Source: Candidatus Epulonipiscium sp.
GTDB lineage: Bacteria > Bacillota > Clostridia > Lachnospirales > Defluviitaleaceae
Assembly (NCBI GenBank): GCA_012519205.1
Contig: JAAYQR010000025.1
Coordinates: forward strand, 1-64,000
Length of the DNA stretch: 64,000 nucleotides
Direction: 5' to 3'
Shown here one piece after another: positions 4,223 to 52,209 of the stretch. Made by a program: the position numbers and the translations under genes. Position 1 is the stretch's first letter, and the number at the start of each line of letters is the position of its first letter. The notes beneath the pieces are model-generated. The model did no database searches, was not told where the DNA came from, and worked only from the letters and a program-made list of their open reading frames with translations.

Positions 4223-7200
4223 CTATCTCTTGCTGCCTACTACCATATATCTTCCTAATCTATTGATATAGGTTCCGATTGCCATTTGTTCATTAGTTTC
4301 TACCTTTTTAAGTGATACCCATCTTCTACTAGATGCATCATATCTATTAAAGGAGGCAGTATTTAATCTCCTCATAGAAGCCATATTCCCATTATAATCA
4401 AGATTTAATAAAATATTGGCGTCTAGATGTTCCATTTTTTCGCTACTTTTTCCAATGTATTGAGTCGCCTCTAATACATATTCCGTAGAAAGAGCAGTCA
4501 TTCCGCTTTCTAAGTTCAGATTGCCCGTATTTGGAAACATTCTAAATCTTATTCCTGAATCTTTATTGTATCTATTTGCCAGCATCTTTTCAGTTTTAAA
4601 TGCCTTGGGATTGATGACTAAAACAAAGTCTCTTCCGATAATTGTAATATTCTTAGAGTAATAAGAAGTTACTACCTCAGAGGCCATACGAATATCTACT
4701 TGGGTAGCTCCCGATAGGGGGCCTCTTATTAAGTCTATAGTCAATTCCGTATTATAATCCTCTCTTCCAAGGGTTATCTCAGCCCAATTCCCATTTTTTC
4801 TAATTATGGTCTTTTCGTTAAGTTCACCATCTATGTCAGGATTGCCTGTTACTGAACCGGTTCTAACCATATTACTTTCTTTAGATGCTTTAGATATATT
4901 AAATTCCCCAAGGGCTTTAACAATAAATTTGTATCTCGTTCTAGGCTCTAAATCCTCATAAATAAAGCTATTTAGCTTTGTGGTTCCTATCATTTCCATA
5001 TTCCTATTATCTATAACTGCATATATTTCATACTCTATGACATCGGGAACAGAATCCCATACTATTTTGATATATCTATCATAGACTAAGTCAGCCCTGA
5101 CCCCTCCCGGAGCACTAACTTCTGGCAGGGAATAGGAAAGAGCATAAATACTACTTGCCCCCCCATCGGAATTTATAATGATGACTCCTAAACTGTCTTT
5201 ATTACCTTCTGGAGTGATTACCCTAAGAGTTTCTTCATCAATAAATTCTACCTCTTTAGCTTCTATTCCCGACTCTAAGGTATAGGCTTCTCCATCAATA
5301 TAAAACACGTTTGTCCCTTGGGTATTTCCCTCTATCTTTCTAATAACAGGATTAAAGTATACCCGAGCTCCTGCCTTAAAGCCATAACCTTTTAGTTTAA
5401 CCTCCTGTCCTCCTTCAACAGATATAACTTTAATCTCATTTAATTCATTTAAATCCATTACCTTTACAATCTTTGGGTTACTTATAAATGTAAATTTATT
5501 TGGGAGAATAACAACAGTTCCATCGGGATTTTGTATTTTTACTTCTACTTCTCCTGGTTCATGGGCAGGAGTGGTAGCATAAATATATTTCCCGTCCATT
5601 GACACACTTATATTTGACGCGGGAACTTCCCCAAAGTATACCCTAAGTTTTTCATTAAATCCTGCCATCGTATCTCTAAAATCTTTTCCTTCAATGGTTA
5701 CTTTTGTTCCTCCACTAGAAGGTCCTTTATTTGGAGTGATGCTACTGCCACTAGGATTGCTTTCTCCTTTTGTAAATATTATATAAATAGGCAGCTGCCC
5801 AGCTATTTTGTCAGAAGATGCACTAGCTCCATCTTCATTTAAAACAACCAATCGATAGTACTTTCCTATTGCACCTTCGGGGACCGCAGGCATATCAAAG
5901 GTTAATCGGGTAGGAATACCTTCAAAATTTATCCTATTGGATGGTATATCCAGTATATTTCCGATGGATATAACAGCATTTTCTCTAAAATCACTCCCTA
6001 ATATCCTTATAGTATTTCCACCCTTGTGATTTACCCTTATTATTCTAGCCGTAATTTCTTTTCCATTTAGATTAATAACCTCTGACGTGGGAGAAATATT
6101 TTGACTGGTAATATCAGTAATCGTAGGTTTACTAGCAGGATTTAAATATTCAAAAGTTGAAGTTCCTATTCCCCCATCTGGATTGATTACCCTTATGGGA
6201 ACTCTTCCTACTGTATGATAAAAAGGTGTGGTTACGGTTATTTCCCCACTTGAAATATAACTTGTTGCTGGGGCAAAACCCCTTTCTACTATAAATCTTC
6301 TATCCACTACTGAAAACTTAATAAGCTCGCTGTAGGGGTATTGCCTTCCCTCATTGTCAACTAATAACTTAGTATTAATAAAAGATTCTTCATCGTTAAA
6401 GTTAGTGAAGGTATTAAAATATAAGATATCTTCATGTTTTAATCTAATAGTTATTGATGGACTCGGATTGGTATGGGCATTATACACTGCATTGTATACT
6501 GCTGTGAAATCCTTTTCAAGAGATACCTGAGCATTTCCTGCATTGATAAGCCCTGAATTCGGTTTATCTCTATCGATACTTTTATTTGTATTATCTCCAA
6601 ACTGTACCAATACAGTTGTTAGATTCTTCTTTTTATCTACTGAATCATTATACACTTTAACATTTGATTCCCGAAAATCAGAACCATATATGGTTACCCC
6701 TGTCCTCCCTGCCTTATTTCCCGCATTGGGGGATACCTTTGTAATAATAGGTTTCGAACCCTCATATGTATAATTTACTGAATTCGACCTTCCTGAATCA
6801 TTATTCTCGATAAATACTTGCGCTGTTCCCGCCGTCGCTTTAGGTGTAAGAACTTTGATATATGTACTGTTAAATTCTACAATCCTAGCCTTTTGCATCC
6901 CAAAATATACCTTAGGAAGAAGGGGTGACTCATAGTAGTAGTTATATCCACTAATTGGGGGATCAAGTTTTACCTTGCTCTTTTCTATATCAAACTTATC
7001 GTCATAAATACCGTTTTTGTTCAAGTCTGTATAAGGTTCATCTTTGTCCCTAACTTGGTTTCTATTATAATCTTCAAAGGGTTCAAAATCCCTAAAATCA
7101 CTTCCAGTAATCTCCACTATAGCTCCCCCTGCTGCTGTCCCTGATGCCGGGACTATCTTTTGAATTCTAGGGTTACTACTGGGCACTACATAAGTATAGG

Positions 7201-10200
7201 CATTTTCCATGGAATCATTACCCCCATCAGGATTAATAATAACCACCGGAACCGTCCATCGTCCCACTCCTTTATCTTTCATTAAATCTCCGTTGTATGG
7301 CGGTACGACAACAGTCATACTACTTCCTGATGTCGCAACATTTATATTATTAGGGGATACCTCTACACCATTTATGAATACTTTTATTTTTTCATATCCA
7401 GTATCTATAAAATCTTTCCCAGTGATGGTAATGATATTATTCCCATAAACACTTCCTTCTTCAGGCTCGATTTTTGTAATAGCCGGTCTGCTTAAAGGCT
7501 GTTTATAGTAATAAAAGCCCTGTTCGTCTTTTCTAGTATCTTTCTTTGTATCCGGATTTTGAACTGTTACGTCATACCATCCATCTGACGGTAAAACTGG
7601 AACTGTAAAATAGATGGTATTTTTATCTATTACCTTTACCCTATCCCCTGTTACTATACCTTCTTTTTCTTCATAGGGGGTTACGATTTCTAATTCTAGG
7701 GGTGGGGTCTGTCCTATCATTACCTTATTGTCCAAAATGGTTAGATCAAATAATCCCCCTCCTAACTTATCTGCTTTAAGCTTAGTCTTTGTTTCATCTA
7801 ATTTAACCGTATAATCATTTCCAATACCATCAGAAATAATCGGAACACCGGATGAATCTACATCAATTGTATAAAGTCGTTCTCCTGCCCTTAGTAAAAT
7901 ACTATGGTAATAATTTGCTACATTCAAAGTTCCATTTTGTATCGTAAATAAATTTTGTTTAGGAGAAAAAGTTCTTAGTTCAATCTCCCTAGTGGAAGTA
8001 TTTATGTTATAGGAGTTTATTTCTTTACCTTCTAACAGTATTCTTGTCCCTATTAGACGGTAAATCCCATCTACCCCCCCCGTAGGATCGGGTTTTAAAA
8101 AGTTTTCCCCTTTAACCACAACTAATGTACCTGTATTTCCCTTCCTTGGCTCAATTGATGTAATCTTGGGATCTGTAAAGGTCTTTACATATATGAAGGG
8201 ATAAATATCCATACCTCCTTCAATATTCATGACTTGAAGCTGCGTCTGACCTTCTCTGCCTTTAGGTGCCTTAAAGGTAATAGTCTTACCATCTGCTTCC
8301 CTTCTAATAGGCTTTACTTCCGCCCCATCTATGAAAATCTTAACCCCATCGGTAAAATTACTACCGGTAACTATGATATCTTCTCCTCCATCGACAGATA
8401 CCACGTTTGGATTTACATTTTGAATAATAGGATTTTTGGAGGTGTCAGGATTTACAAATTCAATATAGTCAAGAATCTGTGTATCAAGTCCTGTTTCCTT
8501 AGAATTTCTCATGGGGTTGGTTAGCCTAATATATGCCTTTCCTAGAGCCACACCTGTTGCAGGGGTTCCCTCTTCTAATTTTATTAATATTTTTGTCCCT
8601 ATTTCACTTCCACTAGAACCATCCAATTCTCTTCCTGTAGAATCAAACACCTTTAAAATCACATCATTCCTTCCATTAAGACTTTTATTAGGGTCATTAA
8701 AGTCTTCACTAGGATTGTTCTTATCGATTCTAAGATTTGGACCCAGTTCTACTATAGGATATCTGACTACTTCCCTTCCATCTGCATTAGTATATTTATG
8801 GATCATGAAGTTTTTACCATACACCGCCATATACCTATCACTAGGAATCTGGAGGGCTCCATTATTATTAGTAACCTGGATTTGTTTTGGAACAGCATCA
8901 GTGATTTCGGGTTTTACCTTACTAAGTATAAATGTATATCCATTTATTTTTACGGCTCTTTCCTTAATAGTTATGGTATTACCATCTTCTTTTGTTAATA
9001 CGGTTTCCGTTTCTATTACAACATCCTTTACAGGATTCGTATCTGCATCTGTGATTTGTGGTGCCCTGACAGTTATTTTATCTAAATCGTTATTAAAGGA
9101 TACATCATATTCACTGCCTCTTTTAATAAAATTTGCTTTATTCCCTATTATAACCCGTATGGTCCTTTCCGCCTTTTTTATCTTTATCCCAGAAGGTCCA
9201 TAGGTTCCATGACCATATTCTACTTTTAAGGCATCGGGGGTGGAATTTTGATTTACCACCATGGTTGATTCCGCAGAAGGGGCGAATTCGGATACATTTA
9301 AGCTTCCTATAAACTGTCCAGAAATTGTTACCAATTCTCCTGTATCTGCACCTCTATTTGGCTGCACATCTATGATAATTGCTTTATTCCTTCCATCAAT
9401 AATAGTAAATTTATCAGTAATTATCGTTTCCCCTGTTACTTCTTGCATTGGATCTTTTCCTTGGGATATTTTATTTGTTAAAACTACATAATATTCACCC
9501 ACAGGAAGATTAGGTACCTGGGTTGTTAAAAAGTCATTTTCCTCTGCAAGGGATTTTGCTTTATATACTGTGTTTAATCCTTTATTTGTATTACTGTAAG
9601 GGTCCGTACCGTCTAAATTCTTTAAAAAGAAAACATCATATTCATCTAATTTATTCGCTGTAAAATAGACAGTATCCCTAGGTTCTCCCCTATTAGGAAA
9701 CATTTCAAGGGTCCCCTCAATGGCTAAATCTTTTGTGAATCTAAACTGATCTAGGTATGTATAGTTAATTTGTACCTCTACATCATTGCTTTTACCGTTA
9801 TTAAAGTTAACATTTTTATTGGTAAATTTGCTTTTAAATATTAGCTCTTGAAGACCCAATTCACCGCTGGGCTTTTCTACTTTTAATACAGTTTTATCCT
9901 CTGATAGGGTATGGGAAAGACTTTTAATAGACTTATAGTTATTTTCCCTCCCAAATAAAGCATCTATATTAAGCTCTGAATTCCCAAGATTTGAAAGTCC
10001 TGTCCCTTTGATCTCTAAATCATCAGTACCAATTTTTACATTTCTCCTAACTTCCGTAAGGGTTGGCATATTTGCTTCATTAATCGGGATTCTAATACCT
10101 TCGATTGAAATAAATTCTCCTAATTGATTTTGGTTAATACGAAATTGTAATTCTCCTTCGGAATTTATCTCCCTATTTCCCAATGTCACAATCCCGCCTT

Positions 10201-10423
10201 TATAGGTTACAATTCCTACATTGGCATCTTTTAAACTCGTTCCCGTAATAGTTATATACATATTTTCGATAATACGGTTTCTATCATATGTTTTACCGAT
10301 GGTTACACTTGTAACAGTAAACCTCGTCTGATCAAAAGCATATACGAATTGCTCAGGCAAAAGACTAATCCCCATAATTAAAATCATAAACCATGATAAA
10401 CAAAACTTAATTCCTTTATGCAT
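4223..10423 (-). CDS. Giant exported IPT/TIG-repeat surface protein with one fibronectin type III domain
   Basis: This 2066-residue protein has a signal peptide (about 1-29). At least eight immunoglobulin-like TIG/IPT domains open with signatures of the form P-x-I-x-x-(I/V)-x-P-x-x-G and continue with (I/V)TGxxF. Their starts are near residues 661, 751, 978, 1086, 1224, 1433, 1559 and 1649. The domain at 1086 carries an Asp/Asn-rich insert (about 1118-1143) that resembles paired calcium-binding loops. A fibronectin type III domain lies at about 1769-1851, followed by a 200-residue C-terminal domain ending RYDASSRRWVSL...GRYMVVGSKR. That tail resembles the end of the neighbouring 808-aa protein. 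There is no SLH, LPXTG or catalytic motif. Such repeats usually form elongated surface fibres or adhesins, and wall attachment would need a partner such as the SLH protein two genes downstream. It matches TIG proteins only at family level. Confidence 0.85.
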   Translation of the reverse strand: MHKGIKFCLSWFMILIMGISLLPEQFVYAFDQTRFTVTSVTIGKTYDRNRIIENMYITITGTSLKDANVGIVTYKGGIVTLGNREINSEGELQFRINQNQLGEFISIEGIRIPINEANMPTLTEVRRNVKIGTDDLEIKGTGLSNLGNSELNIDALFGRENNYKSIKSLSHTLSEDKTVLKVEKPSGELGLQELIFKSKFTNKNVNFNNGKSNDVEVQINYTYLDQFRFTKDLAIEGTLEMFPNRGEPRDTVYFTANKLDEYDVFFLKNLDGTDPYSNTNKGLNTVYKAKSLAEENDFLTTQVPNLPVGEYYVVLTNKISQGKDPMQEVTGETIITDKFTIIDGRNKAIIIDVQPNRGADTGELVTISGQFIGSLNVSEFAPSAESTMVVNQNSTPDALKVEYGHGTYGPSGIKIKKAERTIRVIIGNKANFIKRGSEYDVSFNNDLDKITVRAPQITDADTNPVKDVVIETETVLTKEDGNTITIKERAVKINGYTFILSKVKPEITDAVPKQIQVTNNNGALQIPSDRYMAVYGKNFMIHKYTNADGREVVRYPIVELGPNLRIDKNNPSEDFNDPNKSLNGRNDVILKVFDSTGRELDGSSGSEIGTKILIKLEEGTPATGVALGKAYIRLTNPMRNSKETGLDTQILDYIEFVNPDTSKNPIIQNVNPNVVSVDGGEDIIVTGSNFTDGVKIFIDGAEVKPIRREADGKTITFKAPKGREGQTQLQVMNIEGGMDIYPFIYVKTFTDPKITSIEPRKGNTGTLVVVKGENFLKPDPTGGVDGIYRLIGTRILLEGKEINSYNINTSTREIELRTFSPKQNLFTIQNGTLNVANYYHSILLRAGERLYTIDVDSSGVPIISDGIGNDYTVKLDETKTKLKADKLGGGLFDLTILDNKVMIGQTPPLELEIVTPYEEKEGIVTGDRVKVIDKNTIYFTVPVLPSDGWYDVTVQNPDTKKDTRKDEQGFYYYKQPLSRPAITKIEPEEGSVYGNNIITITGKDFIDTGYEKIKVFINGVEVSPNNINVATSGSSMTVVVPPYNGDLMKDKGVGRWTVPVVIINPDGGNDSMENAYTYVVPSSNPRIQKIVPASGTAAGGAIVEITGSDFRDFEPFEDYNRNQVRDKDEPYTDLNKNGIYDDKFDIEKSKVKLDPPISGYNYYYESPLLPKVYFGMQKARIVEFNSTYIKVLTPKATAGTAQVFIENNDSGRSNSVNYTYEGSKPIITKVSPNAGNKAGRTGVTIYGSDFRESNVKVYNDSVDKKKNLTTVLVQFGDNTNKSIDRDKPNSGLINAGNAQVSLEKDFTAVYNAVYNAHTNPSPSITIRLKHEDILYFNTFTNFNDEESFINTKLLVDNEGRQYPYSELIKFSVVDRRFIVERGFAPATSYISSGEITVTTPFYHTVGRVPIRVINPDGGIGTSTFEYLNPASKPTITDITSQNISPTSEVINLNGKEITARIIRVNHKGGNTIRILGSDFRENAVISIGNILDIPSNRINFEGIPTRLTFDMPAVPEGAIGKYYRLVVLNEDGASASSDKIAGQLPIYIIFTKGESNPSGSSITPNKGPSSGGTKVTIEGKDFRDTMAGFNEKLRVYFGEVPASNISVSMDGKYIYATTPAHEPGEVEVKIQNPDGTVVILPNKFTFISNPKIVKVMDLNELNEIKVISVEGGQEVKLKGYGFKAGARVYFNPVIRKIEGNTQGTNVFYIDGEAYTLESGIEAKEVEFIDEETLRVITPEGNKDSLGVIIINSDGGASSIYALSYSLPEVSAPGGVRADLVYDRYIKIVWDSVPDVIEYEIYAVIDNRNMEMIGTTKLNSFIYEDLEPRTRYKFIVKALGEFNISKASKESNMVRTGSVTGNPDIDGELNEKTIIRKNGNWAEITLGREDYNTELTIDLIRGPLSGATQVDIRMASEVVTSYYSKNITIIGRDFVLVINPKAFKTEKMLANRYNKDSGIRFRMFPNTGNLNLESGMTALSTEYVLEATQYIGKSSEKMEHLDANILLNLDYNGNMASMRRLNTASFNRYDASSRRWVSLKKVETNEQMAIGTYINRLGRYMVVGSKR

Positions 10424-16392: not shown

Positions 16393-16580
16393 TCCAATCC
16401 CTCTTTTCAAATGATATATAGTATTATTGTATGACCTTAGGCTTATTAGAATCATAAATATGTATAATTTATTATTTATCATATTTTTATGCTCAGGCAT
16501 AATGAAGGATTTTATCACTTATGCCCATTACCTATACATTTTAATGTTTTATGTTAATGAATTCAAGTTCTTTTATTATA

Positions 16581-16632
16581 GATAAAAACCCAATAAAACA
16601 AGGCACATGAATGTGCCTTGTTTTATTGGGTT
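16581..16632 (-). terminator. Long perfect terminator after ypeB
   Basis: A perfect 22-bp stem (16587-16608 with 16611-16632) has a two-base centre and is followed on the minus strand by TTTTTATC. The last three codons and the stop of ypeB (16625-16623) are inside the stem. Confidence 0.9.
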
Positions 16633-18035
16633 AGGACTGAATTTTTATTTTGTATTATTTGTAATATCTTTTCTTGCCTTCCATTTTCAGCATTAATATA
16701 AACTATGAATGGATTTTTTTCATGTACGCCCTTAAACTCGTAGCAAAGTACCTCCCTTTTAGATTCTAATGGAATAACTGCCATATTTACTTTTTGGATT
16801 TTAAAATTGGAGGTTATCTTTTCCCTTGCTTCTTCTTCAGTTAATTTTATTTCTGGCAACTTTCTATCGTGGTGCATCATTATATACCCCAAAGATTCAA
16901 AACCTATTATCTCTCCATTATTCATGGATACCTTTACTTTAATTAAATCGGGGTACATTATTACTTCGTCTATTTGAGGAGCAAAATTTATAACAACCGT
17001 ACTATCTACTTTTTCATAATAACTAGGCTTCATATGGGGATAGTCTTTTTCCTTTAGAAATTGCTCCGCCTTTTTTCTAGCTTCCTCTAGATTTATTTCC
17101 TTTCCGGAAGACTGTGCTTCTGTGTAATTTAACATCCAAAGAATCATACCTTTTTGTTGAGTCACATCCACTGAAATTGTCGGTTCATCTTGATTTTTTA
17201 AAATTACTTGGTAACTATATACTGGGATTGTGTGTTCTACCTTTGTATCTGTTTGACCTGTTTGTTTAATGGAATTAATTTTATCTTTACCTATAAAATC
17301 TTCAACTATTTTTTCTCCTTCTTCTTTTGTAATCTTTCTTTTATTCCTAAGCATCCTAGGTTCCATCTTTTCTATATGGTCTGAGAAGGGGCCATCGTAA
17401 ATTAATGTAGGAATATCCTGGAATTGCTTACTAACCTCCGATATTGAACCTGTTATTTTCTTACCTTCCCCCTTAGCCAAATCTTGATATCCCGCCTTTT
17501 CTACCTTTTCCCAGTCTATTCTGCTGCCATTATTGATTTCTTGCTTTATATTATTTAATTCCTTAGAAAGAGCCTTTGCATATTTTTGTATCTGAGATAC
17601 CTTTTCCCAGTCTTCTTTATCTAATTCATGCCCTCCTATTGCCTTATTCGTCATGGCAAAGGAAAAGTCACTGGCTTGGGATAGAAACTTTAAGGCTTTT
17701 GAAATACTAGCATGCTGATAAGGTAAATCCCCCAGGTTTCCTTGGGCTGAGGAAGCTTCTCTCCAAATCTGAGCAAATATTGGAGCACTTTGATCGGGAT
17801 TTTTAGTGAGTTTTGTTTTTGATAGCAAATTATCCATATTGTCTACATAGGTAACCGTTTCATAAAAAGACTTTTGGAAACGATTTTGTAAATATTGTCT
17901 ATAATTTAGCTTTTGCTTATACTGGTATATGCCAAAACCCAGAGTAAGAGCCAAAACCACCATTGTAATACTATACATTTGGACTCTGGATAATTGTTTT
18001 TTCCATTGATAAAATTTGTTATTTCTTTCTTTCAA
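16623..18035 (-). CDS. ypeB: Germination protein YpeB
   Basis: YpeB is the partner needed for SleB to be placed and kept stable in the spore. After a short basic start there is one membrane anchor (about residues 20-38, MYSITMVVLALTLGFGIYQY). A long helical region follows, then C-terminal PepSY/YPEB-like repeats, seen as RKKAEQFLKEKDYPHMKP and REKITSNFKI. The length of about 470 fits the family. The GTG at 18044 lies on top of the ribosome site, whereas TTG at 18035 sits five bases after AGGTGA, so I prefer TTG (470 aa). It begins about 21 nt after sleB, the conserved sleB-ypeB arrangement. Confidence 0.92.
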   Translation of the reverse strand: MKERNNKFYQWKKQLSRVQMYSITMVVLALTLGFGIYQYKQKLNYRQYLQNRFQKSFYETVTYVDNMDNLLSKTKLTKNPDQSAPIFAQIWREASSAQGNLGDLPYQHASISKALKFLSQASDFSFAMTNKAIGGHELDKEDWEKVSQIQKYAKALSKELNNIKQEINNGSRIDWEKVEKAGYQDLAKGEGKKITGSISEVSKQFQDIPTLIYDGPFSDHIEKMEPRMLRNKRKITKEEGEKIVEDFIGKDKINSIKQTGQTDTKVEHTIPVYSYQVILKNQDEPTISVDVTQQKGMILWMLNYTEAQSSGKEINLEEARKKAEQFLKEKDYPHMKPSYYEKVDSTVVINFAPQIDEVIMYPDLIKVKVSMNNGEIIGFESLGYIMMHHDRKLPEIKLTEEEAREKITSNFKIQKVNMAVIPLESKREVLCYEFKGVHEKNPFIVYINAENGRQEKILQIIQNKNSVLTQ

Positions 18036-19682: not shown

Positions 19683-19715
19683 CGTGAGCCTCCTAGTTCG
19701 CCTTTATTTCCATAA

Positions 19716-19745
19716 TAGTATTTGTGAAAATATAGTTTTTTATCC
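19716..19745 (-). promoter_or_regulatory. Candidate sigma-G promoter of the sleB-ypeB operon
   Basis: GGATA (19745-19741) and AATACTA (19722-19716) are separated by 18 bp, close to the forespore sigma-G consensus GnATR-17/18-CATnnTA. sleB is a sigma-G gene in Bacillus. The assignment is by eye only. Confidence 0.4.
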
Positions 19746-19794
19746 AAAAAGGAGAATAAAAACAGATGCATAATGCATCTGTTTTTATTCTCCT
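19736..19794 (-). terminator. Terminator of the decarboxylase gene
   Basis: A perfect 21-bp stem (19750-19770 with 19774-19794) has a TAA loop and is followed on the minus strand by TTTTTGGATAAAAAAC. The stop codon of the decarboxylase (19787-19785) lies in the stem. Confidence 0.85.
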
Positions 19795-21251
19795 ATACTT
19801 CTTCCAAGGACTCTTATATAATTTACATAGGGATCTGCCGTTCCCTGCATCTGACAATTTTCCTCTTTCAAAATCTTTACATAGTCTATAATATCTTTGG
19901 TAATTCTTTCTCCCGGGCATATTATCGGAATACCCGGAGGATATGCCATAATCATCTCGGCACAAATTTCCCCTGCACATTCCTCTAAGGGGATTGCCCT
20001 TTTATGGCTATAAAAAGCATCCCTTGGTGATACTATAAGTTCTGGCATATCGGGAAGGCAAATTATATTTTTTACATCATGGACTCCCCTTTTCTTTGCA
20101 ATATCTGCCACTGCATCCACCAGTTTGTCTATATCTTCTTTTTTATCTCCCAAACTTATAACAGCCATAACATTGTATATATCAGACATTTCGACTTGTA
20201 TACTATATTCATCTCTTAAGACTTTTTCCATTTCAAAGCCACTGATTCCAAGTCTTCTAACATGAATCCCTAACTTGGTTTCATCCAAATCATAGCAACC
20301 GGGATTTCCTATTAGTTCTCTTCCAAAGGCATATATTCCTTCTATTTCATTTAACCTCTTTCTAGCATACCTACAGAGCCCTAGGGTTTCTTCTAACATC
20401 CCCTCCCCCTTAGTGGCTAGTAGCTTCCTAGCCGTATCAATGGAGGCCATAAGTAGGTACGAAGCACTAGTTGTAAAAGTTAAATTGATTACCTGTTTTA
20501 CTTTTTCTTTCTCAATCATATTTCCCCTAAGAAGTAGGACTGAACTTTGGGTTAAGCTGCCCCCTGTTTTATGGGTGCTACATGCACTCATATCTGCCCC
20601 GACCTCCATAGCTGTCAAAGGAAAGTCATCATGAAAATGCATATGGGCTCCATGGGCCTCATCTACCAAAACTGCCGTACCATTTCTATGGGCACTTCTC
20701 ACGATTGCCTTAAGGTCTGATACTGCTCCATAATATGTAGGATTAACAACAAAAACTGCCTTTGCGAAATCATGGATTTCTACTGCTTTTTTTATAACAG
20801 ATGCTGCCACTCCCATGGCAATGCCCAATTCTTCATTAATCTCTGAGGGTACATATATTGGGATTGCTCCAGATAAAATGACGCCTCCTATAGTTGACTT
20901 ATGTGCATTCCTTGGAATAATTATCTGCTCCCCTGGTCTTACGGCACTCATAATCATGGCCTGTATTCCCGAGGTTGTGCCATTTACTAAAAAGTATGCA
21001 CTCTCAGCCCCAAAGGCATCTGCTAAATATTCCTCTGCTTCCTTAATAACTGAAATGGGGTTACAGGCATTATCAAGATCCTCCATCCCATTTACATCCG
21101 CCTTCATTGTATTTTCACCTAAAAACTCTAAAAGTTCCGGATTTCCATGACCATATTTATGTCCTGGCACATGAAAGGGTACAATATCCTTATCCATATG
21201 TTCTTTTAGAGCCGTAAATAGAGGGGTTTTTGTATGATCAATTCGGTTCAC
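19785..21251 (-). CDS. PLP-dependent Orn/Lys/Arg decarboxylase (SpeA/YaaO type)
   Basis: This 488-residue protein belongs to the short Gram-positive branch of fold-I basic amino acid decarboxylases, which lack the large N-terminal wing. The PLP lysine is in STHKTGGSLTQSS near residue 229. VDEAHGAHMHF (the aspartate that contacts the pyridine nitrogen) and the N-terminal VPGHKYG are also typical. The likely product is agmatine or cadaverine, and substrate choice cannot be read from the sequence. The start is GTG eight bases after GGAGG. It has its own terminator and an AT-rich leader with an inverted repeat. Confidence 0.88.
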   Translation of the reverse strand: MNRIDHTKTPLFTALKEHMDKDIVPFHVPGHKYGHGNPELLEFLGENTMKADVNGMEDLDNACNPISVIKEAEEYLADAFGAESAYFLVNGTTSGIQAMIMSAVRPGEQIIIPRNAHKSTIGGVILSGAIPIYVPSEINEELGIAMGVAASVIKKAVEIHDFAKAVFVVNPTYYGAVSDLKAIVRSAHRNGTAVLVDEAHGAHMHFHDDFPLTAMEVGADMSACSTHKTGGSLTQSSVLLLRGNMIEKEKVKQVINLTFTTSASYLLMASIDTARKLLATKGEGMLEETLGLCRYARKRLNEIEGIYAFGRELIGNPGCYDLDETKLGIHVRRLGISGFEMEKVLRDEYSIQVEMSDIYNVMAVISLGDKKEDIDKLVDAVADIAKKRGVHDVKNIICLPDMPELIVSPRDAFYSHKRAIPLEECAGEICAEMIMAYPPGIPIICPGERITKDIIDYVKILKEENCQMQGTADPYVNYIRVLGRSIGE

Positions 21252-28020: not shown

Positions 28021-28048
28021 AAATAAAAGGCCTGCATGAGCAAGCCTT
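28021..28048 (-). terminator. Terminator of the SPOCS/LysM gene
   Basis: A 9-bp stem (28027-28035 with 28040-28048, one G-U pair on the minus strand) is followed by TTTTATTTTTAATA. The stop codon overlaps the stem. Confidence 0.7.
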
Positions 28049-29621
28049 AAATTGCCGATAGTTTTTTAATTATTAGCAATTTCTGTCCCTTATAGATTTT
28101 TTCGGGGTCTTCAATATCATTAATGGCTGTTAGTTCTTCTATAGTTGTATTATATCTTTTTGCTATTTTCCATAAGGTATCCCCATCCTGTACCATATAT
28201 ATTATCAGGCTCGGCATATTCATAAGTACATCGGGGTCTATTTCTGTTTCCGCCATATCAATTATAATATCTATTTCTTGTTCATCCATAATTTCTGCAT
28301 CTACTTGGAACATCATTTTAACCCCAATATCTCTTTCTGATTTAAAAGTATGCATAATATCATCTACATCGACCCTTATATCTACCTTTTTATCGATTGA
28401 TGCCCCCTCTATATCCATGGTCTGTTTAAAGGGCATCATTGTTTCATAAAGATAAATCGGATTTTCCCTCTCTCCAGTTAAATATATTAATTTTATTTCC
28501 GCTATACCCTCTAAACCTATCTTATCATCCATAAGGCGAATATCTTCTATCTTAGGTTTAGCATAAATATTATAGATTTCGGCAATATTGGGGGCATCGG
28601 AATCTAGGGTCAGGGATTCTTCTAATACGATACTTTCTCTATCTTTGTTTATTAATCTTTGATAGGGAAGTTTTTGTTTGTTTATTTTTATTTCTTTCCC
28701 CGGGCAATATGCATCATCTATAACCTCTATCTTTTCCGCAGAAATTAATCTAATACTAATTAATATAACCAATTCCACTTCCAGTATTCTTTCTTCCCCA
28801 TCTAAATCAGGTCTAATTTGAATATATTGATTTAATACTTTAATATCAGTGTTGCAATGCATACCTTCACTAGCCCCTGGACATTCTATGGTTCCATTGT
28901 AAGGAATTTTATGATCTATGCATTCTATTTCATTTTCGCCCATAACCCCTGCATACAAGGTTCTTATATTCACATCACCTTTTATGGTAACTGAATCCTC
29001 TCCTACCTTAGCTTCCTTATTAGAAAGACAAATATCACTTTTTAAAACTTCTTGTATATTAGGTTTTCCTGAAGGTACAGCCAGCTCGTCTTTTATAACC
29101 ATTTTATCTTGATTTAATCCTGCCGTATTATAAAAAGTGAGAGTTTGCTTTTGAATTTGAACCGGATTCTTACTATTAGCTCCAATGATTATCTCATTTT
29201 TCTTTCTTTCAGTTACATTGGCATTCATAGAAACTAAAGCCTTCACGCTAATTTTTCTGCTATTTATCCAAGTATAATCCAAGTGTTCCAAATCATACTC
29301 CATAGTATAATTCATTTCTTTCTTAATTCCATCCATATTAATAAAGTTATCCAGGGGCAGACTCCCCGTCATATTATGTACCACCCTTTCAGAACCTTCT
29401 GCAGCGTATAGTACATAAACCCTAATCTGTCCTTTATAATTAATCCTATCTGCTAAAATGTCAACCTGTTCTAATTCCACCTTGCCATTCATTTGTAAAA
29501 CCCTTACCATATCGGGTTTTATATCTGGTACAATAATATCTCCTTCTACAATATCCTGAACTGTTTCTTTACGAATGGGCCGGTCAAATTCTATTGTTTC
29601 CTTTATAAGTTCTAATGACAT
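28047..29621 (-). CDS. SPOCS (DUF3794) and LysM domain spore coat protein
   Basis: This 524-residue protein has three SPOCS/DUF3794 beta-rich repeats (roughly 35-135, 180-290 and 335-440) and a C-terminal LysM domain (about 475-520, VQDGDTLWKIAKRYNTTIEE). SPOCS domains occur in SpoVID-type coat morphogenetic proteins, and LysM binds cortex or wall glycan, so a role in coat or cortex assembly in the mother cell is likely. It fills the place next to veg where Bacillus has sspF. A candidate sigma-E promoter precedes it. The start follows AAGGAGG. Confidence 0.88.
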   Translation of the reverse strand: MSLELIKETIEFDRPIRKETVQDIVEGDIIVPDIKPDMVRVLQMNGKVELEQVDILADRINYKGQIRVYVLYAAEGSERVVHNMTGSLPLDNFINMDGIKKEMNYTMEYDLEHLDYTWINSRKISVKALVSMNANVTERKKNEIIIGANSKNPVQIQKQTLTFYNTAGLNQDKMVIKDELAVPSGKPNIQEVLKSDICLSNKEAKVGEDSVTIKGDVNIRTLYAGVMGENEIECIDHKIPYNGTIECPGASEGMHCNTDIKVLNQYIQIRPDLDGEERILEVELVILISIRLISAEKIEVIDDAYCPGKEIKINKQKLPYQRLINKDRESIVLEESLTLDSDAPNIAEIYNIYAKPKIEDIRLMDDKIGLEGIAEIKLIYLTGERENPIYLYETMMPFKQTMDIEGASIDKKVDIRVDVDDIMHTFKSERDIGVKMMFQVDAEIMDEQEIDIIIDMAETEIDPDVLMNMPSLIIYMVQDGDTLWKIAKRYNTTIEELTAINDIEDPEKIYKGQKLLIIKKLSAI

Positions 29622-30212: not shown

Positions 30213-31040
30213 CTACAAAATACTTGGTGCACCTTCCCTATATTTTCCTCTTGTTTGAAAACCTCCTATTCCTTTTAGCCCCGTAATGGTATTTTCTATA
30301 ATTTCTTCTATCGCAAGAATCTTTGCCATGGAAGCATATGCTATCTTTTCACATATAAAAACCGGATCTAAAGCATGTATCATCACTCTTTCCGGAGAAC
30401 TGGCAAAATTAGCCCCTGCCTCTATTAAAGCTTCATAATTTGATTGACAGGCTCCAGCAAATACTACCAGTTCATCCATATTGGGCTCATATTCTCTTGC
30501 TCTTTTTACTGTCTCAACAAAATGCTTTGAATTCCTATAATTATTTATATTTTTATAATCACTAGTCCCCTTTACTATAGAATCATGCCCGGTTATTACC
30601 AATATATCCGGTCTATATTCTCTTAGCATAGATGAAATTTCTAAGGGATGATCCTTTTCTTCTATGTCTTTACCCACGACATCAATTCCCAGTCCTTCGT
30701 AAAACTTTAAGCAGACTTTTAAATATGATGGGTCTCCATCTACATGCAGAACCTTCCCCGGCCTTTTTAAAATTGATTCTCCCGAAGCCCTTCTTTGATT
30801 TTCTTCTGATAATCTTTTTTTTAATATGCCTCTCATGGTCTTTTCTGCTTTAATTAAAGTGATATCATCTAGGGGATTGCTATAATAGACTTTTTGCAAA
30901 TCTTGCCACGGGGCATCTGCCAAAATCCTATAATTAAGCCCTGATAATTTCACTATTCCATAGGGTGTTACTTCAGTTATTCGAAAATATAAGTCCCCGC
31001 CATAAGACCTCCTAACTACGATATCTCCAACCTTTAGCAT
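30213..31040 (-). CDS. yabG: Sporulation-specific protease YabG
   Basis: YabG is a mother-cell cysteine protease that trims coat proteins late in sporulation and, in clostridia, processes germination proteins. The 275 residues begin LKVGDIVVRRSYGGDLYFRI and contain the family blocks KVLHVDGDPSYLKVCLKFYE, LVITGHDS (conserved His) and VVFAGACQSNYEAL (conserved Cys). Length and motifs are standard. It is followed by veg, as in Bacillus. The start has AAAGGAGG. Confidence 0.93.
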   Translation of the reverse strand: MLKVGDIVVRRSYGGDLYFRITEVTPYGIVKLSGLNYRILADAPWQDLQKVYYSNPLDDITLIKAEKTMRGILKKRLSEENQRRASGESILKRPGKVLHVDGDPSYLKVCLKFYEGLGIDVVGKDIEEKDHPLEISSMLREYRPDILVITGHDSIVKGTSDYKNINNYRNSKHFVETVKRAREYEPNMDELVVFAGACQSNYEALIEAGANFASSPERVMIHALDPVFICEKIAYASMAKILAIEEIIENTITGLKGIGGFQTRGKYREGAPSIL

Positions 31041-34244: not shown

Positions 34245-35573
34245 TTACTCTCCCATATTACCATTTTCTAGGGCTGAGCCAGTATCTTTTTTATCCTCTT
34301 GAAGGGTAAATAAGAATTGTTTTTCCTTTTTACCTTCCTCTAGAGAAGCTGGGAAATGAATAGGACTATATCCTTCCTTTACAAGGGAAATCTTATGTTC
34401 TCCAAAGGGTATTTGCCGTTCAACAGGAGATGTACCTATAAAGGTATCGTCTATATATACCTCTGCCCCTGGGGGATTGGTATCAACTACCACTTTAACC
34501 ATCTTAGCCATTTCATTTTCCTCTAATTTTATTTCAATTCTATTGTCTTCTTTTTCCACCTTAAAGTCTCGGCTCCAGTCTTTATAACCCTCTTTTTTTA
34601 CTATCATATGATAATCCCCATATTCTAGCAATATAATTTCGTTAGCAGGGTATTCAACGTCATTAATAAATATCTTATAATCCGTAGTGCCCTTTGCTAT
34701 TACTTGGAGTCTTCCAATTTTCTTTTTCATATCCTTTAGGTCAATTTCCCGAACCTGTCCAGCATCTACTTGAATATTTTTTACGACTGGTTCATAACCC
34801 GTTCTTTTTATTACTACCTTATGGCTCCCCTCTAAAACTTCTATCTTTTTTGCCTCTTTTATACTTATAAATATATTATTATCTATTTCCACCGTTCCAT
34901 CCTCATCGGAAGAGTTTACAGCTATATATCCATGGGAAGTTTCAAGATCGATAAATAATGCTTTGTTTTTATAACCTTTTAGGCTTATTCTATCTATTGC
35001 ACTAATATCTTCTAAAGATATTGGATCATTTTTATACATTGTAATCAATCTGTGGGTATAGGAGTATATTTCATTACCTACTTGTATGGTCTCTGATTCT
35101 AAATCTATTATTACGTCCCTAATCCCCTTCTTTTCCCAAGCCTCGCCGCTGATTCTAAAGTATTTCGGGACCCTACTGCCCTTATCATATTTTGTTTGGA
35201 TTATATCCCCTTTTTTAAATTGCTTTAGGGTCATGGCATTTCCATATAAATCCTTCATTTCTGTTCCACTCTCAATATTAAGGATTAATTGCTCTTCTGT
35301 GTCGATATTTATGATTTCTATTTTATTGCTATCTACCCCAGTTACTACTCCTATTGTTTCCTCCATTTCTCCTGTTTCTTCACCCTTTTGGGGATCTTTA
35401 TCTTCCCTAGAAATACCCTTATCTTCCTTCTTAAACCCATCTTCCTTTCCCATCATGGAATAAAAGATTCCAAACATAATGAATAATATTAACAAGCCTC
35501 CAAGCCCTGTTAAAAGCATAAACTTTATAAAATCTGATTGTGATTTAGCATTATTTTTCTTTTTATTAGCCAC
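34245..35573 (-). CDS. Membrane-anchored PEGA-domain protein
   Basis: The GTG at 35573 follows AGAGGG by six bases, and upstream starts only add non-homologous residues, so the protein is about 442 aa. After a basic start (ANKKKNNAKSQ) there is one membrane helix (about 15-38), a charged linker, a beta-rich middle and a C-terminal run of PEGA-type repeats. These repeats end in phrases such as GSHKVVIKRTGYEPV, GDYHMIVKKEGYKDW and GEHKISLVKEGYSPI. PEGA domains occur in surface or wall-associated proteins, but function is not established. The gene follows a candidate structured RNA with terminator, which may be its leader. Confidence 0.85.
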   Translation of the reverse strand: MANKKKNNAKSQSDFIKFMLLTGLGGLLILFIMFGIFYSMMGKEDGFKKEDKGISREDKDPQKGEETGEMEETIGVVTGVDSNKIEIINIDTEEQLILNIESGTEMKDLYGNAMTLKQFKKGDIIQTKYDKGSRVPKYFRISGEAWEKKGIRDVIIDLESETIQVGNEIYSYTHRLITMYKNDPISLEDISAIDRISLKGYKNKALFIDLETSHGYIAVNSSDEDGTVEIDNNIFISIKEAKKIEVLEGSHKVVIKRTGYEPVVKNIQVDAGQVREIDLKDMKKKIGRLQVIAKGTTDYKIFINDVEYPANEIILLEYGDYHMIVKKEGYKDWSRDFKVEKEDNRIEIKLEENEMAKMVKVVVDTNPPGAEVYIDDTFIGTSPVERQIPFGEHKISLVKEGYSPIHFPASLEEGKKEKQFLFTLQEDKKDTGSALENGNMGE

Positions 35574-35646
35574 TACAATCCCTCTTTTCAACCTATATTT
35601 TTGTGCCGTATAAACTGACAATTGTATTATACACCAATAATAAAAC

Positions 35647-35673
35647 AAAAAAAAGAAACCTTTTCAGGTTCTT
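35647..35673 (-). terminator. Terminator at the end of the candidate RNA
   Basis: The stem AAGAACC/GGTTTCTT (imperfect) with a TGAAAA loop is followed by eight T on the minus strand. It lies 74 nt upstream of the PEGA start codon. Confidence 0.7.
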
Positions 35674-35782
35674 AAAAGGGAACCACACAAAACACTCATC
35701 TGTAAAGGGCTAAAGGGTATTTCAATATCTATGATAAGTTCATAGATTGGAGAGGACGATGATTGTGTTTTGTATGATTTAT
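35647..35782 (-). ncRNA. Candidate structured RNA (or terminator-controlled leader of the PEGA gene)
   Basis: A predicted start near 35782 follows a strong sigma-A promoter. A 9-bp closing stem, ACAAAACAC (35773-35765) with GTGTTTTGT (35695-35687), continues after a 2-nt bulge into TCATC/GATGA (35762-35758 with 35700-35696). Inside is a second stem, CAATCTATGA (35749-35740) with TCATAG and ATTG (35734-35723), separated by a large asymmetric internal loop. A terminator with eight U (35654-35647) ends it. The segment GAACC (35671-35667) can pair with GGTTC upstream (35684-35680) or with GGTTT in the terminator, so the structure could switch. It codes for no obvious peptide and matches no riboswitch I recognise. 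It may be a free sRNA, a 6S-like RNA or a leader. Confidence 0.45.
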
Positions 35783-35787
35783 CAGTA

Positions 35788-35816
35788 ATCATACCAGTAA
35801 ATAACGAATTTTTCAA
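35788..35816 (-). promoter_or_regulatory. Sigma-A promoter of the candidate RNA
   Basis: TTGAAA (35816-35811), exactly 17 bp, then TATGAT (35793-35788); each box is one base from consensus. It lies between the end of the CotS-like gene and the structured region. Confidence 0.65.
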
Positions 35817-35826
35817 CAATAAATTT

Positions 35827-36816
35827 TTATAATTTATCTATATACCTTATAAACTCTATTAAATTTTCTTTTTGTTCCACAATGGAATTGAGTTTCCTTA
35901 TAAGATTTCGAGATGGCCACGCCCTTTTACTATTATAATACTTATTACATGTCTTCCAAAAATCAGTAGGAAAAATTAAAAGACTGATTAATATATTCTT
36001 CATGCCTTCTATAGTAAATTCTTTATTATACAATGCTAGAAGTTCATTAAGCATTTGGATATTCCATCCGTGCTTTTTCATTATCTTTTTTAATACTGAG
36101 GCCAAATCGTAAACGGGAAGACCATATTTACACTTTTCAAAATGGGTCACATATAAATGTCCCTCGGAAACCATAATCAGATTATGATATGTATAATCAT
36201 TATGGCAAATATACTTGCTTTTTCTCATTTCTTTACTTATTTCACTGTAATAAGCCTTCTTAAGATGTTCTATAGCCTTCAAAGAAAATTCCTCATAATC
36301 CTTATGATGTTTTAAAAATAATATATCAAAATCACTCATATGGCTTTGCCTATTAATCTTTTTTTTCATTGTATTAAATTCTTTTACCCTTTTTCTAAAG
36401 ATTAAGGGTAAATCATCTCCATAATATCTAATCCTACTCCCTTCAATTGCAGTCATACCCTTTGATTTTTTATGCATATAACCTAAATTAGAAATCGCCT
36501 TTTTTATATCTATCGGATTTCCGAAGTCGCATTCTCTTCCATCCACCCAATCGGTCATAATATATATTACCCCATCGTGAATATAGTAGGGGGCATTTTT
36601 ATCAGAAATATGAAATCTATCAATCCATTTAAATCCATTGGCATATAGGTATTCTTTTGCACTATGTTGGAAAAGGAGATTAGGGATATCTTCATTTACG
36701 GCTCTAATAATTTTTATCCCTTGATTCGTTTTACATATAAAGGAGTTTCTAAAGGGTGTATAGGTCTTTAATCTATATCCAAATGCTTTTATAATTTCTG
36801 GCTTTAGCTCTTTCAA
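35827..36816 (-). CDS. CotS-family spore coat kinase-like protein
   Basis: This 329-residue protein has the aminoglycoside-phosphotransferase / CotS kinase fold. The catalytic loop appears as ICHNDYTYHNLIM (about 203-215, Asp as base) and the metal-binding segment is shifted to THFEKCKYGLPVYDLA, where the usual IDFD is replaced by THFE. The N-terminal lobe has RNSFICKTNQGIKIIR. Members sit in the spore coat and some are thought to phosphorylate or glycosylate coat components; activity here is uncertain given the altered metal loop. The start is TTG after GGGGGTGA. Confidence 0.82.
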   Translation of the reverse strand: MKELKPEIIKAFGYRLKTYTPFRNSFICKTNQGIKIIRAVNEDIPNLLFQHSAKEYLYANGFKWIDRFHISDKNAPYYIHDGVIYIMTDWVDGRECDFGNPIDIKKAISNLGYMHKKSKGMTAIEGSRIRYYGDDLPLIFRKRVKEFNTMKKKINRQSHMSDFDILFLKHHKDYEEFSLKAIEHLKKAYYSEISKEMRKSKYICHNDYTYHNLIMVSEGHLYVTHFEKCKYGLPVYDLASVLKKIMKKHGWNIQMLNELLALYNKEFTIEGMKNILISLLIFPTDFWKTCNKYYNSKRAWPSRNLIRKLNSIVEQKENLIEFIRYIDKL

Positions 36817-42928: not shown

Positions 42929-42959
42929 AAAAAGTAACCACCTTTGGTGGTTACTTTTT
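42929..42959. terminator. Bidirectional terminator between the stress gene and proS
   Basis: A perfect 14-bp stem (42929-42942 with 42946-42959) has a TTT loop and five A/T at its outer ends, serving both convergent genes. Confidence 0.85.
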
Positions 42960-44394
42960 AATATGCTCTTCCCCAATATAACATCTTACTTGCAGGTTTT
43001 TCGCAGCATACACAAGTATCTGAAATATGCTCCTGCTCAAAAGGAATACATCTTGAAGTAGCCCCTGTTTCCTCTTTTATTTTATCTTCACAGGCTTCAT
43101 CCCCACACCACATAGCCTTAATAAATCCTGGGGAGGTTGCTAGTATCCTTTTAAACTCTTCAATATTTTTTGCAGTATAGGTTTTTTCGTCCCTCATTAT
43201 TCTTGCTTTTTCTAATAGTTCTTTTTGAAGAATATCCATATGCTTTGGTATTTCGGTTTCTAATTCATCTATTGAAATTATTATCTTTTCTCTTGTATCT
43301 CTTCTAACCAATACGACTTGGTTCTTTTCTATATCCTTAGGTCCTATTTCTAGTCTATAGGGAACCCCTTTCATTTCATGTTCACTAAATTTCCATCCAG
43401 GCATTTTATCCCTGTCATCCAATTCTACCCTAACCAAAGAAGATAGCCTATTTTTTATTTCATTAGCTTTATCTAATACCCCTTCTTTATGAGCAGCAAT
43501 AGGAATCATGACCAGTTGAGTTGGAGCAATTTTAGGTGGTAAGACTAGTCCACTGTTATCTCCATGAACCATAATAACAGCCCCTATTAATCTTGTGGTC
43601 ATTCCCCAGGAGGTCTGATGAACATATTTCAGTTCATTATTTTTATCCGTATATTGAATTCCAAATGCCTTAGCAAAACCATCTCCAAAATTGTGACTAG
43701 TTCCTGATTGGAGTGCCTTTCCATCATGCATTAAACTTTCTATAGTGTAAGTTGAATTTGCCCCTGCAAATTTTTCTTTATCGGTTTTTTGCCCTTTAAC
43801 CACGGGGATTGCAAGAACATTTTCGCAAAACTTGGCATAGACATTTAGCATTTTTATGGTTTCTTCTTGAGCCTCTTCGGCCGTTGCATGGGCTGTATGC
43901 CCCTCCTGCCATAAAAACTCCAAAGTTCTTAAAAACGGTCTGGTGCTTTTTTCCCAACGAACAACAGAACACCATTGATTGTATAGTTTTGGAAGATCAC
44001 GGTAAGATTGAATGACATTGGCATAATGCTCGCAAAATAGGGTTTCTGAAGTCGGACGAACACAAAGCCGCTCGGTTAATTTTTCTTCTCCCCCATGGGT
44101 AACCCAAGCAACTTCTGGAGCAAACCCCTCTACATGATCTTTTTCCTTTTGAAGAAGGCTTTCGGGTATAAACATTGGCATGTATACGTTTTTATGCCCT
44201 GTTTCTTTAAATCTCATATCTAGTTGACTTTGAAGTAATTCCCATATGGCATATCCATAGGGCTGAAGAATCATACATCCCCTTACACTGGAGTAATCTA
44301 TAAGTTCTGCTTTTTTAACTACATCCGTGTACCATTGGGCAAAGTCCTGCTCCATATCGGTTATTTCTTGAACGAATTTCTTATCTTTTCCCAT
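42958..44394 (-). CDS. proS: Proline--tRNA ligase, short archaeal/eukaryotic type
   Basis: This class II synthetase of 478 residues lacks the editing insertion of the usual bacterial ProRS. Motif 2 is in [20 protein letters not shown] (about 139-158) and motif 3 in [13 protein letters not shown] (about 271-283). The C-terminal zinc-type domain ends [16 protein letters not shown] with several cysteines. It charges tRNA-Pro. A T-box leader with a complete antiterminator controls it. The start follows AAAGG. Confidence 0.95.
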
Positions 44395-44420: not shown

Positions 44421-44665
44421 AAAAAAACCCCAATCCCATAAAGGGACCGAGGTTATCGGCGGTACCACCCTAATAATACAATGATATTAAAAAATAAGTG
44501 TTTTAATATCATCTATCGCTCTTTTTTGATAACGGCAGAAAACTGCCGCTGCATTTTTCATGCAGAACTCCAAGGCGGGGCATAAATAAATCTTTTAGAA
44601 ATCTTTCACCTATGATTCCCTCTCTGTAAAAAAACCTTATTTATGATTCCTTTTCATTGTTTCTT
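44421..44665 (-). promoter_or_regulatory. T-box leader of proS
   Basis: The T-box sequence GGGTGGTACCGCCG (44470-44457) is followed by a terminator of 12 pairs (with G-U) and seven T. Upstream there is an AG-box region CAGAGAGGG (about 44627-44619) and a GGTGAAAG distal element. The likely specifier CCC (44579-44577) precedes GCCTTGGAG; CCC is a proline codon, agreeing with the gene. Uncharged tRNA-Pro should stabilise the antiterminator. The rest of the 44395-44839 gap holds its promoter and nothing else I can identify. Confidence 0.93.
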
Positions 44666-44681
44666 ACAGGTATTTGGATTT

Positions 44682-52136: not shown

Positions 52137-52209
52137 TACACCATCGGGGGCTCGAACCCCGGACGCCCTGATTAAGAGTCAGGTGCTCTACCAACTGAGC
52201 TAATGGTGC
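52137..52209 (-). tRNA. tRNA-Lys (CTT)
   Basis: This 73-nt tRNA has anticodon stem CCTGA/TCAGG and loop CTCTTAA, giving CTT. The acceptor stem is GCACCAT/ATGGTGT, ending in a G1-U72 wobble pair. No CCA is encoded. It lies 4 nt upstream of tRNA-Leu in the same transcript. Confidence 0.93.

Follow-up and report, generated by a model that had tools for sequence, protein, structure and literature searches.

The gap between a cotS-family gene and a PEGA-domain gene in Candidatus Epulonipiscium sp. raises the question of whether a segment of its minus strand, predicted to fold into a long rod, is a small RNA in its own right or belongs to the transcript of one of its neighbours. The segment lies within the 64,000-nt stretch of contig JAAYQR010000025.1 that we analysed (the window), and its features are collected in Table 1. 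An initial annotation of the window had considered two roles for it, namely a switch controlling the PEGA-phosphoglucomutase transcript and a free small RNA with a 6S-like outline.

For comparison we used eight species of the family, comprising the window genome and seven Defluviitalea relatives, all outside the genus of the window genome. The PEGA gene is present in all eight with cotS before it; its product is 53-62% identical in the seven other genomes, and cotS has 329 codons in every family genome where its length was listed. A phosphoglucomutase-like gene (pgm) comes after the PEGA gene. The neighbourhood has a sporulation character, with genes for a SipL/SPOCS-LysM protein (28047-29621) and a YabG protease (30213-31040) on the same minus strand as cotS. 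Also on this strand, positions 4223-10423 encode a 2066-residue protein with several TIG/IPT domains, a probable large surface protein. The rod is overlapped by a 51-codon ORF (35664-35819) that has no ribosome-binding site and no homologue in the family genomes, Pfam or plasmids, and a small protein gene at this position was therefore ruled out.

Table 1. Features of the cotS-PEGA gap and its flanking genes (window coordinates).
Feature	Position	Strand	Details
cotS-family spore coat kinase-like gene, upstream neighbour	35827-36816	minus	329 aa; TIGR02906 249 bits (cut-off 172.7)
Extended -10 sigma-A type promoter TTGAAA-17-TATGAT with TGn	35788-35816	minus	10/12 match + TGn
Rod	35681-35779	minus	z -6.0; 0/200 shuffles as good
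Outer helix	35779-35765 + 35762-35758 paired with 35700-35681	minus	20 pairs (15 + 5), 2-nt bulge
Unpaired CCUCUCC, internal loop	35749-35755	minus	accessible; possible anti-Shine-Dalgarno seed
Inner hairpin	35727-35747	minus	8 bp; MFE and centroid
Two tandem CCCUUU, internal loop (35717-35712, 35709-35704)	35704-35717	minus	mean unpaired probability 0.69 and 0.97
Third CCCUUU, linker between rod and terminator	35675-35680	minus	unpaired 0.98
Intrinsic terminator hairpin + U8, conserved cotS terminator common to the candidate RNA	35647-35673	minus	same place in 8/8 family genomes
-10 box TATAAT (in GTGTATAAT) of predicted PEGA promoter, downstream of terminator	35626-35631	minus	GTGTATAAT invariant in 8/8 genomes
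PEGA-domain membrane protein gene, downstream neighbour	34245-35567	minus	GTG start 35567; PF08308 85.9 bits

Promoter and predicted fold

The TTGAAA-17-TATGAT promoter proposed in the initial annotation was borne out by our analysis. Its -35 box (35816-35811) and -10 box (35793-35788) are separated by a 17-nt spacer, and the predicted transcription start (35782-35780) coincides with the base of the rod. Eight sites of this quality (10/12 match plus TGn) occur on both strands of the 64-kb window, one of them directly preceding tRNA genes at 52209, and we calculated a chance of ~0.0005 for such a site to lie in the 9-nt zone at the foot of the rod. Ordinary promoter-like matches in the window are no commoner than in shuffled sequences. 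We did not count the GTATGAT/ATCATAC dyad of 7 bp that overlaps the -10 box, since such dyads occur at 2.3 per kb.

The rod-like fold was confirmed as well, with a predicted energy of -28.1 kcal/mol for the rod alone, but its dimensions differ from those first described: the outer helix has 15 + 5 pairs around a 2-nt bulge rather than 14, and the inner helix has 8 pairs rather than 10. The plus strand of the same region gives a z of -2.4 vs -6.0 on the minus strand. For the whole 137 nt, in which the rod is followed by a 7-nt linker and then by the terminator hairpin and its U8 tract (35654-35647), the z is -5.1. A coarse scan of the window (55-nt step, not centred on the rod) identified no more than a handful of places that exceed the rod region in fold excess. 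The largest excess, with z of about -8 to -9.5 on both strands, was observed at 19691-19855 and 16556-16665, which lie near gene ends and are probably bidirectional terminators. We judge discrete transcription of the candidate RNA to be fairly likely.

Terminator, PEGA promoter and distribution of the rod

The candidate RNA had been described as possessing its own terminator. A hairpin and U8 tract would end the RNA, but they also form the conserved terminus of cotS: all eight family genomes have, 3' of this gene, a short hairpin with TTTCTTTTTTTT, whose arms vary between genera but keep their pairing. Because the same hairpin-U8 follows cotS throughout the family, the terminator of the candidate RNA is, by comparison of the genomes, the ancestral cotS terminator. 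It is followed in 8/8 genomes by TTxGTGTATAAT, which is the predicted promoter of the PEGA gene itself. Since this conserved promoter lies after the terminator, PEGA-pgm would be transcribed from a start beyond the terminator, and this speaks against a riboswitch. We noted that the minus-strand stretch from TTTCTTTTTTTT to TTxGTGTATAAT (35626-35660) is nearly invariant in the eight genomes, and this conservation perhaps exceeds what a terminator and a -10 box need.

The distance from the cotS stop codon to the hairpin is ~5 nt in one relative (G001), ~12 nt in four (G003, G005, G006 and G007), ~65-75 nt in two (G002 and G004) and ~155 nt in the window genome. The rod was found in the window genome and is absent from the seven other family genomes. 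A covariance model of the rod identified only the rod itself among 8 family, 196 order and 391 class genomes, so that the conservation in relatives suggested as a check by the initial annotation was not observed in this set, which contains no other member of the genus. BLAST revealed no second copy in the window genome, returning short chance matches only (among them a 20/21-nt match within an rsmG-like gene), and this single copy number rules out a repeat element. When the segment was used as a BLAST query against phages, plasmids and 57 relatives, the hits were again short chance pieces, with the exception of the terminator in G003 and G005. A contig search with the PEGA alignment returned the same relatives, none nearer, and no viral contigs. 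Because the compared genomes include no close (same-genus) relative, we take the rod's lack of conservation to be narrow distribution and not absence of function.

C-rich segments and competing explanations

The predicted structure leaves 45 positions of the rod and linker mostly unpaired (16 C, 15 U, 12 A and 2 G), and the paired bases hold 11 G. A count of three CCCUUU motifs within 110 nt was reached by 0 of 5000 shuffles and, when both strands of the window were scanned, by the candidate alone, these motif statistics having been chosen after the sequence had been inspected. Possible targets were sought among 368 genes, called crudely in the window and in genome stretches sampled to a total of 400 kb. 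AAAGGG occurred 29 times in the start regions of these genes vs 15 times in coding controls, a twofold difference, and the preference of the linker segment for translation-start regions was equalled by 1 of 60 shuffled linkers. The two loop segments, including the one with CCUCUCC, showed no preference for the translation starts of the 368 genes above that of composition-matched shuffles, and the tandem CCCUUU segment had no more near-perfect targets than the control number. Since the loop segments fail to beat shuffles, the idea of a seed rests mainly on composition and repetition. Pairing with the PEGA, pgm or cotS starts was middling, and we therefore make no claim of a cis-target. Taken together, these comparisons lend moderate support to ribosome-binding sites as the predicted targets.

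The explanation we favour, with a probability of roughly 0.5, is a lineage-specific trans-acting small RNA of ~135 nt that would pair with G-rich ribosome-binding sites in an LhrC-like manner. The strong promoter of vegetative type in the cotS-PEGA gap would initiate transcription from ~35782, and the conserved cotS terminator would stop it. The long rod may confer stability on the RNA and keep CCUCUCC and the three CCCUUU motifs single-stranded, allowing these G-poor, C-rich segments to pair with target mRNAs at their G-rich Shine-Dalgarno regions and to block ribosome binding, as in LhrC, RsaE/RoxS and FsrA of other Firmicutes. For this C-rich antisense mechanism the odds seem to us about even. 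Promoter placement, fold and exposed C-rich repeats support, at the sequence level, the earlier suggestion of a free small RNA transcribed from a promoter of its own. We regard it as possible but doubtful that the RNA is a young one near its birth, the promoter and a C-rich rod with multiple seeds having arisen in one lineage upstream of the old cotS terminator; it would then be a regulator of ribosome-binding sites outside every known sRNA family. If real, such an RNA would offer a before-and-after picture of sRNA birth by the borrowing of a neighbour's terminator, as well as a compact example of multi-site C-rich targeting beyond Listeria and Staphylococcus.

The rod might instead be part of a long structured 3' UTR of the cotS mRNA, perhaps protecting it against 3' exonucleases, in which case the promoter match would be fortuitous or weak. 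The use of the conserved cotS terminator and the range of cotS-terminator distances in the family (~5 to ~155 nt) are consistent with such a UTR, but seven relatives manage without the rod, and chance would seldom place a 10/12 extended -10 promoter precisely at the base of the rod; we consider this explanation improbable. About equally improbable is the insertion of a passive palindrome, or drift of the gap sequence, without function. We found neither further copies in the genome nor a recognisable target-site duplication, and a promoter, a strand-biased fold and repeated loop motifs would have to coincide, whereas the occurrence of the rod in one genome and in none of seven relatives, together with the larger gaps without a rod in G002 and G004, counts in its favour.

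The initial annotation had also proposed that 35671-35667 can pair in two ways. The alternative pairing of this segment (GAACC) with 35684-35680 (GGUUC) does exist, with 5 bp and -5.5 kcal/mol when taken alone, but in the full RNA it is 4.3 kcal/mol less favourable, and a nearby 5-nt complement comes cheaply and is weak evidence. Were this pairing to open the terminator, read-through into PEGA-phosphoglucomutase would make the segment an attenuator or riboswitch, as might be suggested by the mutual exclusivity of the two pairings, the modest size of the energy difference and the 5-28% reached by single alternative pairs in nascent RNA. However, the segment does not occupy a leader position, since the conserved terminator and a separate promoter intervene before PEGA in all eight genomes, seven of which lack the rod, and no Rfam aptamer was detected; the proposed switch is accordingly very unlikely. 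Still further from probable, to the point of being negligible, is an additional or divergent 6S RNA, binding RNA polymerase. Its appeal lies in the rod shape and the large, asymmetric loop inside it, but the candidate is ~135 nt long vs 187 model positions and gave no 6S match at E up to 10, and the kinship implied by the 6S-like outline has to be abandoned given that the true 6S RNA of this genome is elsewhere (contig C27, 147081-147272, 72.9 bits).

Comparison with known RNAs

A search with all 4227 Rfam covariance models assigned the small RNA we favour to no family at the gathering level or at E up to 10 beyond chance, its sole match being to the PyrG leader (E = 8). Elsewhere in the window, a T-box leader (RF00230, 93.9 bits) was identified at 44439-44666 on the minus strand, immediately 5' of a gene for prolyl-tRNA synthetase (42958-44394, PF09180/PF00587). 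In the literature on small RNAs in Defluviitalea we found nothing relevant.

The candidate shares with 6S RNA (RF00013) a rod outline with an internal loop, but it fails the covariance model, and a genuine 6S lies elsewhere in the same genome. With RsaE/RoxS and FsrA of Staphylococcus and Bacillus it has in common C-rich seeds, here predicted, that lie exposed and are complementary to Shine-Dalgarno sequences; it differs from them in having no Rfam match and no conservation across genera, and their architecture is unlike its rod. As in C-rich trans-acting small RNAs of Firmicutes, we observed at the sequence level a free-standing promoter and a terminator, the latter common to cotS, and repeated C-rich motifs in segments predicted to be unpaired.

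In Listeria LhrC, an RNA poor in G, the Shine-Dalgarno region of lapB is bound by three redundant CU-rich sites (UCCC), located in a loop, in a linker and in the loop of the terminator; RNAIII, RsaE, SprD and FsrA also use UCCC motifs (PMC4132741). The candidate differs from the LhrC family of L. monocytogenes in being present in a single copy vs five, in the lack of an Rfam match, in its motif (CCCUUU vs CUCCC...UUUU) and in forming one long rod vs a short stem-loop. It resembles the family in its low G content, in three C/U-rich sites predicted to be single-stranded, one of them in the linker between rod and terminator, and in its intrinsic terminator, and an hfq gene is present in the genome. 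The candidate is probably an orphan small RNA belonging to a known functional kind and not a new RNA class, and as such it would leave the set of known mechanisms as it is.
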